From assembly GCF_000331305.1 (NCBI RefSeq), contig NZ_KB217478.1, forward strand, positions 1,843,679 through 1,907,678: a stretch of 64,000 nt of DNA, in the 5' to 3' direction. The stretch is from Calothrix sp. PCC 7103. Lineage in GTDB: Bacteria > Cyanobacteriota > Cyanobacteriia > Cyanobacteriales > Nostocaceae. Below are positions 937-4,955 of this stretch, in pieces (position 1 is the stretch's first letter; every line of letters starts with the position of its first letter). The translations under genes were made by a program, and so were the position numbers. The notes beneath the pieces were generated by a model. It made no database searches and was not told where the DNA came from. It worked only from the letters and a program-made list of their open reading frames with translations.

Positions 937-2037
937 ATGCCAAGTGAAATTAGTTACAAAGCAGATTTTTCTGAAATTCGCTATGCCCAGTGTTGGGAGG
1001 ATACTGATATACTGTTGGATGCTCTAGATATTCAGCCTGGTGACGTTTGCTTATCTATTGCTTCTGCTGGTGATAATACCCTAGCAATGTTAAGCCAAAG
1101 TCCAGCTAGAGTAATTGCAGTAGACATTAATCCTGCACAAATTGCCTGCTTAGAGTTACGAGTTGCAGCTTACCGAGAACTTAGTCATCCTGAATTACTG
1201 GTGTTAATTGGCTCACTGCCTGGAGACGGCGCCTATAGAATTAGTTTATATCATCGTTGTCGCCCTCAGCTATCTATAGTTACCCGTGAATTTTGGGATA
1301 AACATAGCAGAGCAATCGTGCAAGGTATTGGAGCAGCAGGTAAATTCGAGCGCTATTTAAGTTTGTTTCGCTCAATCTTACCTTTAATTCACAATCAGGA
1401 CATTATCACCGAAGCTACTAAAGAAAAAACAGAAATAGAACGTCATATATTTTACCAGCAACATTGGAATAATCGTCGTTGGCAGTTGTTCTTCAGAATC
1501 TTCTTTTCTCAGTTCATACTAGGTCGTCTAGGGCGCCACCCAAGTTTTTTTGAATACGCTCAAAAAAATGTGGCAGAGCATTTATTACAACGTACTGCTT
1601 ATGCAATGACGACAATAAACCCTTATGATAACCCTTACCTGCAATGGATTGCCACAGGGCAACACCTGACAGCATTACCATATGCTTTGCGTCCCGAAAA
1701 CTTTGAGATAATTCGCGCAAACCTCGACCGTTTAGAGTGGCAATGCACAGCAATTGAAGATTTACTAAAAAATCTAGATTGTGATTTTATCCATAAATAT
1801 AACTTAAGTAATATTTTTGAGTACATGTCTAATCAAAATTACGAGACTTTGCTCAGAAAGCTTATACGTGTAGGAAAAAGTAGCGCACGGTTAGCTTACT
1901 GGAATTTACTTGTAAAACGTTCTCGTCCCGAAGATATGAAGAATTTATTATATTCTCTCACTTCGGAGGCTACTAGGCTGTATCAACAAGATAAAGCTTT
2001 TTTTTACAGTGCCTTCATTTTGGAAGAGATTATTTGA
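937..2037 (+). CDS. BtaA-like S-adenosylmethionine 3-amino-3-carboxypropyl transferase (DUF3419)
   Basis: This 366-residue protein matches the DUF3419/BtaA family. BtaA moves the 3-amino-3-carboxypropyl group of S-adenosylmethionine onto diacylglycerol in betaine-lipid synthesis. The N-terminal YAQCWEDTDILLDAL (about 16-30), the glycine-poor SAM loop SIASAGDNTL (40-49) and AVDINPAQ (61-68) are the family signatures. Many relatives act on unknown acceptors, so diacylglycerol is not assured. No btaB-type N-methyltransferase follows, which argues against betaine lipid as the product. Instead a GNAT gene begins one base after this stop, indicating translational coupling, and an AMP ligase lies downstream. 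The two would be consistent with N-acylation of the transferred amino group (inference). Confidence 0.8.
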   Translation: MPSEISYKADFSEIRYAQCWEDTDILLDALDIQPGDVCLSIASAGDNTLAMLSQSPARVIAVDINPAQIACLELRVAAYRELSHPELLVLIGSLPGDGAYRISLYHRCRPQLSIVTREFWDKHSRAIVQGIGAAGKFERYLSLFRSILPLIHNQDIITEATKEKTEIERHIFYQQHWNNRRWQLFFRIFFSQFILGRLGRHPSFFEYAQKNVAEHLLQRTAYAMTTINPYDNPYLQWIATGQHLTALPYALRPENFEIIRANLDRLEWQCTAIEDLLKNLDCDFIHKYNLSNIFEYMSNQNYETLLRKLIRVGKSSARLAYWNLLVKRSRPEDMKNLLYSLTSEATRLYQQDKAFFYSAFILEEII

Positions 2038-2038
2038 A

Positions 2039-2974
2039 ATGCAAAAATTGATTTCTCATAACTTTGTGCAAACGAAAGATGTTACAGACGCTGATGCTCA
2101 TTGGCAACTCATAAACAACACCCAGGTAATAGGGCAATACTCTCTATGGTGGAAAAACACACCCTCACTCAATGGATGTAAACTTGGTTATATCGGACAC
2201 TACGAAGTACTTAATGAAAATGCGACAGAAGTATTAGCACATGCTTGTAAGCAACTTGCTTCCCTTGGTTGTAATTTAGCAGTTGCACCAATCGATGGCA
2301 ATACATGGAAGCGTTATAGATTATTAACAGAGCGAGGTGTACACCCAGCTTTTTTCTTAGAACCCAATAACCCAGAAAATTGGCGCCAACACTTTATAGA
2401 GCAAGATTTTGCACCACTGGCTAATTATAGTTCCAGTTTAAACACTGATTTAAAACAAATAGATTCTCGTTTGCAATTCGTTAAACAACGATGTGAACAA
2501 GCAAACATTCGCATTCGCACATTAAATTTACAAAATCAAGAGCAAGAGCTACATCATATTTATAATATTGCAATTCAGAGCTTTAGGAATAATTTTCTAT
2601 TTACACCAATTAACGAAGCTCAATTTATTGCCCAATATCAATCATTATTACCGTACATACAACCAGAATTAGTATTAATTGCAGAACATGAGCAAAATCC
2701 AGTGGGTTTTTTATTTGCTATCCCAGATTGGCTACAAAAACAGCGAGGAGAACCTGTAAATACCATCATTATTAAAACCGTTGCCATCTTACCAAAACGT
2801 ATATACGCTGGACTAGGCAATTTACTCGTAGCTCAATGTCAGCAAATAGCTCACCAACTCGGATATTCGCAAGCTATCCACGCTTTAATGCACGACGCAA
2901 ACCCTTCCCGTAATTTAAGCAGTCGCTATGCAACGACAATACGTCGTTATAGTCTTTTTAGCAAAAAACTTTAA
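2039..2974 (+). CDS. GNAT-family N-acyltransferase
   Basis: The chosen ATG at 2039 lies one base past the stop of the BtaA-like gene, with GGAAGAG about 10 bases upstream; a GTG at 2009 would add 10 residues and overlap that gene. The 311-residue protein is longer than a single GNAT domain. The C-terminal half carries the GNAT-like pattern: a strand (LVLIAEHEQNPVGFLFAIPD), then TIIIKTVAILPKRIYAGLGNLL as the acyl-CoA-binding strand and loop, and a final LGYSQAIHALMHDANPSR. The N-terminal half may be a degenerate second GNAT fold. The donor and acceptor are unknown. Tight coupling to the BtaA-like gene suggests that it acylates the amine made by that enzyme. Confidence 0.72.
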   Translation: MQKLISHNFVQTKDVTDADAHWQLINNTQVIGQYSLWWKNTPSLNGCKLGYIGHYEVLNENATEVLAHACKQLASLGCNLAVAPIDGNTWKRYRLLTERGVHPAFFLEPNNPENWRQHFIEQDFAPLANYSSSLNTDLKQIDSRLQFVKQRCEQANIRIRTLNLQNQEQELHHIYNIAIQSFRNNFLFTPINEAQFIAQYQSLLPYIQPELVLIAEHEQNPVGFLFAIPDWLQKQRGEPVNTIIIKTVAILPKRIYAGLGNLLVAQCQQIAHQLGYSQAIHALMHDANPSRNLSSRYATTIRRYSLFSKKL

Positions 2975-2983
2975 ATTAAAATG

Positions 2984-3357
2984 CTAAATTGTCATTCTGA
3001 GCGCAGCGAAGAATCTATAGTCTCAATATATACCCAAATCCTAAATTGTCATTCTGAGCGCAGCGAAGAATCTATAAGTCTCAATGTATACCCAAATCCT
3101 AAATTGTCATTCTGAGCGCAGCGAAGAATCTATAAGTCTCAATATATACTCAGATGCTTCACTACGTTCAGCATGACATTTGAGCGTGTAGCAAATACTC
3201 CCTTCACGCTCAAAGAATACCGAAAATGAACGAACCGCAAAGGACGCAAAGGACGCAAAGGAAGAGGGAGAATTTATAGGTAATCTTCTAACAGGAAGGG
3301 AGTAATATATACTCACAATATATATTTAGATGCTTCACTACGTTCAGCATGACATTT
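2984..3357. repeat. tandem and half copies of an imperfect palindromic repeat
   Basis: Three head-to-tail copies of a 57-58 bp unit start at 2984, 3041 and 3099. Each contains GTCATTCTGAGCGCAGCGAA followed by GAATCTATA and TCTCAATATATACCCAAAT, and they are nearly identical. After the third copy comes the opposite arm (GATGCTTCACTACGTTCAGC, about 3152-3180), repeated at 3328-3357. The two arms are diverged reverse complements of each other, so the array is a rearranged member of the palindromic family also found at 25364, 36546, 40352 and 43567. A hairpin (TTTGAGCGTG...CACGCTCAAA) spans 3179-3214. Short apparent reading frames here are by-products of the repeat. Confidence 0.85.
3237..3262. 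repeat. 9-bp short tandem repeat (GCAAAGGAC)
   Basis: Almost three copies of the nonamer GCAAAGGAC follow one another within the gap between the GNAT and AMP-ligase genes. Short tandemly repeated repetitive sequences of this kind are common in intergenic DNA of heterocyst-forming cyanobacteria. Confidence 0.7.
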
Positions 3358-3380
3358 AAAACATACTCTTAAATAAAAGA

Positions 3381-4955
3381 ATGAATATTATTACCATATT
3401 AAAACAATTTGCTACTACCCAGGCTGAATTACCAGCAATAATAGACACTTATAAAAAATGTCCTCGAACAACAACATTTGCAGATCTAGAAAAAGCATCT
3501 GCCATTACAGCGACTTTATTACAACAAAAAGGGTTACAACCTGGAGATGCAGTACTAGTATTTCATCCCATGTCGGCAGAACTTTATATTATTCTTGCTG
3601 CTTTATTCCGCTTGGGACTAATTGCCATGTTCCTTGACCCTGGTGTCGGTAAAAATCACATAAATGACTGCTGTAACTTATACACTCCAAAAGCACTAAT
3701 TGCCAATTCTAGAGCCTATTTACTATGCTTACAATCACAAGCTTTACAACGTATACCTTTAAAATTTGCCATTGGTTGCCCTATACCAGGTGCCATATCT
3801 TTGAATTATACCCAACAGGCGCCGTATGATATTTCTAGTAAAATTTTTACAGCTACAAAAGATAGCCCAGCTTTACTAACATTTACTAGTGGAAGTACAG
3901 GAAAACCCAAAGCAGCATTACGCACCCACGGATTTTTACTAGCTCAACACCAAGCTTTAGTTAATACCCTGCAACTTCAAGCGCAACAACTAGATTTAAC
4001 AACCTTACCAATTTTTGTCCTTGCCAATTTAGCATCTGGTTTAACTAGCTTAATTCCAAATGCAGATTTACGAAAACCAGGAGCAATAAATCCCGCTCCA
4101 GTCATAGCTCAGATTTTAACTCATCAACCTTCACGAACGGTTGCATCACCTGGTTTTTTATCAAGGTTGACCGCATATTGCTTACAACATAACTTAACTT
4201 TACCCAGCTTAGAGAAAATTTTTGTTGGTGGGGCGCCAGTAATGCCAAACTCATTAATAGAATTACACAAAATGGCGCCCAATAGTCAAATTACAACAGT
4301 ATATGGGTCCACAGAAGCAGAACCCATAGCTTACTCCCATCATCACCAAACAGAAGACATAGCAACCACATTAACAGGAGGAGGATTGCTAGTTGGAAAA
4401 CCCGTAGACAGCATTCAATTAAGAATTTTGCCTCAATGTTGGGGTAAACCTCTCAGTCCTTACACCCATGCTGAATTTACTGCTGCTTGCCAACCAATAG
4501 GAACCCCAGGAGAAATAGTCGTTAGTGGAAACCACGTTTTATCTAGTTATCTTAATGGTGATGGTAACGAAGAAACAAAATTTACAGTCGAAGGTACTTC
4601 TTGGCACCGAACGGGTGATACTGGATATATAGATAATCAAGGTCGCTTATGGTTACTAGGTCGTTGTATAGGCTGTATTGATGATGATTATGGGACTCTT
4701 TATCCTTTAGCTGTAGAAGGAATCATGCAAAATCATCCTGATATCCGTCATAGCGCAGTAATTGTCCATCAAGGTCAGCGAACTTTAGTAGTAGAGTTAA
4801 ATAAACCTAGTTACCAAATAGATTGGAAACCTGTGAGAGATTCTTTAGAAAATATGCACATTCAAAAAATTAAGGTGTGCAAAAAATTTCCCTTAGATAA
4901 ACGACACAATGCCAAAATTGATTATCCCGCACTGTTAAAACTTTCTTTAAGATGA
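3381..4955 (+). CDS. OleC-like AMP-dependent ligase (acyl-activating enzyme)
   Basis: This 524-residue adenylate-forming enzyme has all core motifs in order: TSGSTGKPK (169-177, P-loop-like A3), VYGSTEAEP (A5, about 314-322), WHRTGDTGYID (A7) and the C-terminal catalytic lysine in DKRHNAKIDYPAL (A10). The A10 block and overall layout resemble the OleC/beta-lactone synthetase and fatty-acyl-AMP ligase branch rather than peptide synthetase domains; there is no carrier or condensation domain. The likely substrate is a fatty or hydroxy acid (inference). It follows the BtaA-like and GNAT genes in the same direction but across about 400 bp of repeats, so co-transcription is possible but not shown. 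Together they suggest a small acyl-amino-acid pathway. Confidence 0.8.
   Translation: MNIITILKQFATTQAELPAIIDTYKKCPRTTTFADLEKASAITATLLQQKGLQPGDAVLVFHPMSAELYIILAALFRLGLIAMFLDPGVGKNHINDCCNLYTPKALIANSRAYLLCLQSQALQRIPLKFAIGCPIPGAISLNYTQQAPYDISSKIFTATKDSPALLTFTSGSTGKPKAALRTHGFLLAQHQALVNTLQLQAQQLDLTTLPIFVLANLASGLTSLIPNADLRKPGAINPAPVIAQILTHQPSRTVASPGFLSRLTAYCLQHNLTLPSLEKIFVGGAPVMPNSLIELHKMAPNSQITTVYGSTEAEPIAYSHHHQTEDIATTLTGGGLLVGKPVDSIQLRILPQCWGKPLSPYTHAEFTAACQPIGTPGEIVVSGNHVLSSYLNGDGNEETKFTVEGTSWHRTGDTGYIDNQGRLWLLGRCIGCIDDDYGTLYPLAVEGIMQNHPDIRHSAVIVHQGQRTLVVELNKPSYQIDWKPVRDSLENMHIQKIKVCKKFPLDKRHNAKIDYPALLKLSLR

Follow-up and report, generated by a model that had tools for sequence, protein, structure and literature searches.

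The stretch of DNA considered here (the window) comprises 64,000 nucleotides of the 11.6 Mb genome of Calothrix sp. PCC 7103 (contig NZ_KB217478.1; G000:C7:1843679-1907678). Near its left end lie three genes of the same strand, encoding a BtaA-like transferase, a GNAT-type acyltransferase and an acyl-activating ligase, which the initial annotation had assigned to an uncharacterised pathway. We found that they are the last three genes of a larger conserved eight-gene system (hereafter the module), whose five other genes are placed outside the window. The window features concerned are the following:

937..2037, plus strand: BtaA-like (DUF3419) S-adenosylmethionine (SAM):3-amino-3-carboxypropyl transferase, of a clade without btaB; 366 aa; PF11899
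2039..2974, plus strand: GNAT-type acyltransferase, probably made of two tandem GNAT folds; 311 aa; PF00583
2979..3149, no strand: three copies of a 58-bp tandem repeat between the GNAT and ligase genes
3381..4955, plus strand: acyl-activating (AMP-forming) ligase of the PRK09274/OleC-like group; 524 aa; PF00501
1..515, plus strand: 3′ part of a 2-oxoglutarate/iron (2OG-Fe) dioxygenase gene starting outside the window at L037:14811; PF10014, E 5.1e-68 for the full open reading frame (ORF)

The three ORFs were confirmed, as was the single base separating the BtaA stop (2035-2037) from the GNAT ATG (2039-2041), a spacer also present in loci L003, L004 and L005. In the closest named genomes, Calothrix sp. 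PCC 7716, Dulcicalothrix desertica PCC 7102 and Calothrix NIES-4105, BtaA identity is 91-95%. BtaA matches PF11899 (DUF3419) with an E value of 3.8e-66 and 224 bits, the cut-off being 28.2. Twenty-one positions, including W20, E21, D22, S43, G45, N47 and D63, are conserved alike in 22 BtaAs of the module and in 5 BtaAs encoded next to btaB, and from these residues the window protein is expected to transfer the aminocarboxypropyl group from SAM. The Pfam matches of the window GNAT are PF00583 (E 1.3e-5, 25.8 bits, cut-off 20.7) and PF13508 only; PF13444, the domain of OlsB-type aminolipid N-acyltransferases, is absent from them. Its AlphaFold model is weak (pLDDT 62), with top Foldseek matches that include tandem GNATs at a query TM score of about 0.3, and suggests that the protein probably consists of two GNAT folds. 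A PDB sequence search with BtaA and GNAT as queries gave no meaningful match.

The ligase belongs to the AMP-binding family (PF00501, E 2.3e-44), and its adenylation residues and K512 are retained by 93% or more of the 20 members compared. It had been described as OleC-like and a lactone-type product had been suggested. The assignment to acyl-activating enzymes stands, the closest being the NCBIfam ‘fatty acid CoA ligase family’ PRK09274 (378 bits, under the cut-off of 478), but the OleC label is loose: the two OleC models gave 223 and 212 bits, far under their cut-offs of 850 and 900. The OleC/lactone route was rejected on this ground, and nothing points to a lactone. The gap between GNAT and ligase is 406 bases in the window versus 8 in Calothrix NIES-4105 (L005), and the tandem repeats are a local insertion, outside the pathway.

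The other half of the module was found 5.5-12 kb to the left of the window (L037:3189-9470), as five genes on the same strand as btaA. For the first four, the Pfam assignments were taken from the L040 homologues:

L037:3189-4331, same strand as btaA: radical SAM/SPASM protein
L037:4270-5364, same strand: c8, membrane protein
L037:5377-5808, same strand: c6, membrane protein
L037:5809-6723, same strand: UbiA-type prenyltransferase
L037:6882-9470, same strand: PEPS, an RPH/PigC-like phosphotransferase with PPDK_N and PEP-utilizers domains

In Calothrix NIES-4105, all eight genes are read in the same direction in one run, the sole interruption being an opposite-strand ORF of 91 aa. In the source genome the two halves are split by a block (L037:9490-15515) encoding an AMP-ligase-acyl carrier protein-thioester reductase, a 319-aa protein, an HpcH/HpaI aldolase and the 2OG-Fe dioxygenase. 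L005 lacks this block and L003 and L004 have part of it; it may encode a small pathway of its own, and its last gene, the dioxygenase, is probably not part of the module.

Co-inheritance was analysed in 388 genomes of the order. BtaA matches were found in 52 of them, 26 of which belong to the module clade; the other 26 were excluded, being either members of different DUF3419 clades (27-38% identity along most of the protein) or short matches. UbiA was found in 25 genomes, all of them within these 26 (Fisher p 1.7e-38, relatedness ignored), and the 25 positives are spread over 13 genera and 6 families. The 26th genome, G353, of the source genus, has a btaA relic of 133 codons and no match to UbiA, GNAT, c8, PEPS or ligase, as in a natural loss. 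Downstream of its ligase gene the window has a Uma2-type gene, and this same gene follows the relic (L061:9896-10297), which holds the first 131-133 btaA codons. Roughly half of the order's positive genomes have the genes dispersed, with BtaA amid housekeeping genes.

The remaining genes were scored in a panel of 59 genomes, made of 27 positives (the 25 plus G395 and G397) and 32 others that we chose among genomes without module BtaA, mostly from the source family, together with G353 and G380. PEPS was present in 27/27 positives and 0/32 others. GNAT orthologues gave the same figures (27/27 and 0/32); G096 showed one weak paralogue, and the matches in G034 and G176 were fragments at contig edges. 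With a threshold of E 1e-40, the ligase was found in 22/27 positives and 2/32 others, and is the least constant gene of the core. A pathway of three genes, as first proposed, does not fit these counts, UbiA and PEPS being as constant as BtaA and GNAT. For c8, the figures were 17/27 and 0/32. Another gene, c19, was present at 54% identity or more in 8 positives and no others, the remaining matches (about 33% identical) corresponding to a protein present in most of the panel. No panel genome has both c8 and c19, and neither was found in G052 and G397.

In a scan of 386 genomes of the phylum, the module BtaA clade was detected in 17 at E 1e-30 (20 matches minus 3 of another clade), and UbiA, at E 1e-15, in 22, including all 17 with BtaA. 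Among the five further UbiA genomes, G399 retains a piece of BtaA where a contig ends, the stretch in G646 stops at a contig edge, and the other three, detailed below, carry UbiA-PEPS with no BtaA in the stretch covered. UbiA-PEPS can thus occur without BtaA, and module-clade BtaA was never seen without UbiA, except for the G353 relic. Conserved neighbourhoods in related genomes, which the initial annotation had proposed to look for, were indeed found: counted by locus, loci of close relatives included, UbiA-PEPS are neighbours in 27, PEPS-BtaA and GNAT-ligase in 17 each, BtaA-GNAT in 12, BtaA-c19 and c19-GNAT in 9 each. Linkage of GNAT and ligase is kept away from BtaA in G072 and G089, and G406 has a fusion of the ligase with a UbiA domain (profile E 8e-26, Pfam below cut-off). 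Five loci of family f47 (L117-L121), whose genomes are of 1.8-2.3 Mb and whose members are probably non-photosynthetic, as we infer, have a compact operon UbiA-PEPS-BtaA-c19-GNAT-ligase with overlaps or tiny gaps. The same six-gene order is found on a plasmid of the alphaproteobacterium Roseinatronobacter sp. S2 (L096:523-8507). Coverage outside the phylum consisted of plasmids and one contig scan (five loci); the plasmid search with the L096 UbiA returned its own plasmid only.

Sister sets of UbiA-PEPS-GNAT homologues, associated with other genes, were found in three genomes. In G397 (L172/L202), they are accompanied by genes for PEP mutase, phosphonopyruvate decarboxylase (which exceeds its NCBIfam cut-off), an iron-type alcohol dehydrogenase and a PlsC-type acyltransferase. 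In G399 (L197) the order is PEPS-CdsA-type-PssA-type-GNAT-UbiA, with a cytidylyltransferase and a CDP-alcohol transferase, and in G426 (L199) PEPS-PssA-type-GNAT-Psd-UbiA, with a CDP-alcohol transferase and a phosphatidylserine decarboxylase; Pfam matches nothing in the L199 GNAT, which was called by the module profile alone (79 bits). Head-group genes are exchanged around UbiA-PEPS-GNAT, and we read the gene content of these loci as a single lipid core on which the heads can be swapped. In trees that leave out L003, L004, L052, L042, L043, L143 and L144 (near-copies, partial or off-target), the sister-locus UbiAs form their own clade (100/100), and the sister PEPS fall among deep BtaA-type lineages.

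Other lipid-related genes are found close to the set. A diacylglycerol kinase (DAGK)-type lipid kinase is present in G397, fused to HMG-CoA reductase, and in G419, G406 and G409, which are deep-branching and without c19 or c8; MMPL-family transporter genes are located near L124, L125 and L127. In Phormidium tenue FACHB-886 (L006:4053-6284), a PhoX-type alkaline phosphatase gene lies directly upstream of UbiA-PEPS-BtaA, a possible hint at phosphate stress.

The absence of a btaB partner, claimed from the local sequence, was verified over the whole source genome. With a Rhizobium plasmid btaB that adjoins DUF3419 as query, no orthologue was found, and the best of 26 matches reaches 31% identity (E 6e-8), as for generic methyltransferases. 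In a tree that omits fragments (L061, L062, L146), loci no longer than 4.2 kb and L051 (no BtaA called by the ORF caller), module BtaAs form their own clade of 39 rows (support 96/92), and the five BtaAs with a btaB-like neighbour (L065, L066, L151, L152, L098) group separately (100/99). As the set is conserved, btaB absent and the BtaA clade separate, the claim of an uncharacterised pathway that is not ordinary betaine-lipid synthesis holds.

Several DUF3419 loci outside the module clade were also seen. L065, L066, L151 and L152, from cyanobacteria of the order, have a btaB-like methyltransferase gene directly after the DUF3419 gene and apparently carry canonical betaine-lipid genes. The source genome holds a second DUF3419 gene, of a different clade. 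It belongs to a conserved cassette (L038:7012-10647; C7 about 3519011-3522646) whose other genes encode a GNAT-like protein, a fatty-acid desaturase and an iron enzyme resembling haem oxygenase. This cassette, also found in L068, L069, L070, L148, L149 and L153, is another uncharacterised DUF3419-GNAT pairing, unrelated to the window group. On Rhizobium plasmid pMK-2 (L097:1817-8155), a DUF3419 gene is found with ketoacyl-acyl carrier protein synthase III, an NAD(P)-dependent oxidoreductase, an MBL-fold protein and a ‘CoF synthetase’.

PEPS combines a PPDK-type ATP domain with a phospho-histidine domain, in which the phospho-histidine H810 is retained; the C-terminal phosphoenolpyruvate (PEP)/pyruvate-binding domain is not among its Pfam matches, which are PPDK_N and PEP-utilizers only. 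This layout, with the two domains in the same order, is that of rifamycin phosphotransferase and PigC. The PigC/RedH models gave 280-286 bits and rifamycin phosphotransferase 257 bits, all below the NCBIfam cut-offs. A PEP synthase proper was rejected, as TIGR01418 is below cut-off (207.5 bits for 739.75) and the pyruvate-binding domain was not found. The membrane protein c8 arose by duplication within itself, its two halves aligning with each other (hhalign 99.7%), and has a sub-threshold match to a lycopene-cyclase domain (E 0.0084). For c19, matches to PF01148 were below cut-off in two members (E 1.7e-4 and 0.0016), and DUF92 was matched by the second half in one member only (E 0.038). c19 also matches (hhalign 99.6%) a 235-aa protein, ubiquitous and encoded in the same genome, named by no library, which we take to be of phytol-kinase type. 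By these profile comparisons, c19 appears distantly related to CTP-dependent prenol kinases (phytol and dolichol kinases), from which it differs by its extra second half; its AlphaFold model (pLDDT 44) was not used. UbiA scores 57.8 bits with PF01040, for a cut-off of 34.2 (L040 homologue), and its first aspartate motif, D-x3-D-x3-D, is retained in 37/37 sequences; it is similar to the N62/D66/D70 motif that PMC9385802, in the part covered here, reports for digeranylgeranylglyceryl phosphate (DGGGP) synthase.

We propose, with a probability of about 0.55, that the set builds a polar lipid in which a prenyl/acyl core bears a homoserine-type head. UbiA would transfer a prenyl chain, and PEPS would bring phosphate from ATP, via its histidine domain, onto an alcohol of the growing core, or activate this alcohol. 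The ligase would supply an acyl group that GNAT would attach, and BtaA would add 3-amino-3-carboxypropyl (homoserine) from SAM to a free hydroxyl, forming an ether bond and releasing methylthioadenosine. With no BtaB, the head would remain unmethylated and phosphorus-free, and the product would probably reside in the membrane. A third slot would be filled by c19, by the DAGK-type lipid kinase or, as in the source genome, by radical SAM-c8-c6. More tentatively, UbiA-PEPS-GNAT may be the modular core of a class of mixed prenyl/acyl membrane lipids, outside the bacterial diacylglycerol and archaeal diether routes, with swappable homoserine (BtaA), serine/ethanolamine (PssA/Psd type) and phosphonate (PEP mutase) heads.

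Several observations weigh against this proposal. The second aspartate motif of UbiA is replaced by conserved E195, R198, K199 and E206, so that ordinary prenyl-diphosphate chemistry is not certain. The scheme leaves the roles of radical SAM, c8 and c6 unexplained. The ligase is lacking in 5/27 positives, and 2/25 BtaAs look broken (fragments in G052, two overlapping frames in G208). Three phylum genomes lack BtaA in the stretch concerned: G392 and G409 carry UbiA-PEPS-GNAT-ligase, and G390 carries UbiA-PEPS beside an enoyl-CoA hydratase-type gene. Finally, a Pho-box scan upstream of the set's genes gave nothing above shuffled background, and lends no support to a phosphate-stress role.

The initial annotation had GNAT N-acylating the amino group made by BtaA. 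In its extended form, where the ligase activates the acyl group and UbiA and PEPS make the acceptor, the product would be an N-acyl-homoserine lipid. The adjacency of BtaA and GNAT in 12 loci, with only c19 between them in 9 more, speaks for it, as do the 17 loci with adjacent GNAT and ligase, the linkage of these two apart from BtaA in G072 and G089, and the GNAT-like gene adjoining the unrelated second DUF3419 group. But GNAT homologues accompany UbiA-PEPS in the BtaA-less sister loci (L172/L202, L197, L199), and since GNAT is common to all head types, N-acylation of homoserine is doubtful. GNAT also lacks PF13444, the domain given for aminolipid N-acyltransferases in the part of a review covered here (PMC11631085). 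We regard this alternative as possible rather than probable; the likelier target of GNAT is the core shared by all versions. A soluble or semi-soluble meroterpenoid or secondary metabolite is a rather unlikely outcome. UbiA would then prenylate a small, perhaps aromatic, acceptor, PEPS would be a PigC/RedH-like ATP-dependent condensing enzyme, BtaA would act as an alkylating enzyme on a phenol or alcohol, in the manner of nocardicin-type ethers, and GNAT and ligase would tailor the product. The patchy distribution (25/388) and the sub-cut-off PEPS matches described above are compatible with it. So are the nearest Streptomyces plasmid PEPS homologues, which lie beside AfsA-type and oxidative genes: the runs L182:10024-15401 and L183:4669-10616 hold a PEPS-like gene with AfsA-type hotdog and isoprenylcysteine-methyltransferase-type genes, to which L183 adds a nitroreductase and a P450. 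Against it, CdsA-, PssA- and Psd-type phospholipid genes stand in one run with UbiA-PEPS-GNAT in sister loci, MMPL genes and lipid kinases are nearby, and the conserved set contains no polyketide synthase or non-ribosomal peptide synthetase, phenol or shikimate gene.

Ordinary betaine lipid (diacylglyceryl trimethylhomoserine), methylated by an unlinked BtaB, would account for the true BtaA homology, and generic methyltransferases abound in the genome; but no btaB orthologue was found there, the five DUF3419 loci with an adjoining btaB-like gene are a separate clade, and the requirement for UbiA and PEPS is left unexplained. We consider it very improbable, and the betaine-lipid pathway was rejected on the absence of btaB and the separate clade. 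That the genes are neighbours by chance or hitch-hiking, with no link in function, is hardly credible: their dispersal in some half of the order's positive genomes would fit, but co-inheritance persists despite it (25 vs 25 of 388), and the operon is retained across distant lineages.

Compared to known systems, the proposed homoserine lipid pathway shares with bacterial BtaA-BtaB the BtaA family, its conserved residues and the expected SAM-derived homoserine ether; it differs by the lack of BtaB, a separate clade and, in the order sample, the constant presence of UbiA and PEPS. With the archaeal ether phospholipid pathway (DGGGP synthase, CarS, PssA/Psd-type; PMC9385802, in part), it has the UbiA superfamily in common, and sister loci add the CTP-transferase, CDP-alcohol transferase and phosphatidylserine decarboxylase families. 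However, the model for geranylgeranylglyceryl phosphate (GGGP)-geranylgeranyltransferase, the third-best NCBIfam match of UbiA, gave 27.8 bits for a cut-off of 353, the second aspartate motif differs, and the archaeal route has no place for GNAT, PEPS and ligase; GGGP synthase was not searched for. OlsB/OlsA aminolipids, as presented in the part of PMC11631085 covered here, are also amino-acid lipids made with an acyltransferase and an acyl supply, but here PF13444 is lacking, the head would come from SAM, and a prenyltransferase and a phosphotransferase are present. Three candidate systems were rejected within the covered parts of the respective papers: the ebo cluster, which has its own UbiA (PMC9235831; EboC model 16 bits for a cut-off of 250), the myxobacterial elb ether-lipid operon (PMC9131029; gene lists do not match) and lipocone UbiA operons (PMC12419801; mismatch). 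In the portions covered, a review of SAM chemistry gives BtaA for betaine lipid only (PMC10491745), and term counts in the FCB archaeal-lipid paper show no mention of cyanobacteria or GNAT. A full-text literature search, with subscription journals and preprints largely outside its reach, found no pathway combining aminocarboxypropyl, prenyltransferase, PEP synthase and acyl-CoA ligase; DUF3419 is named in four of the papers within its reach.

The swap of BtaA for phospholipid-type or phosphonate genes around one core offers a testable handle on this core, through the lipids of the strains. If the proposal is true, some cyanobacteria, their small-genome phylum relatives and at least one alphaproteobacterium would make a polar lipid missing from the lipid inventories consulted, and BtaA would mislead as a marker gene for betaine lipids in these genomes. 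The UbiA-PEPS-GNAT modular core, if it exists as such, would be a third kind of bacterial polar-lipid assembly line.

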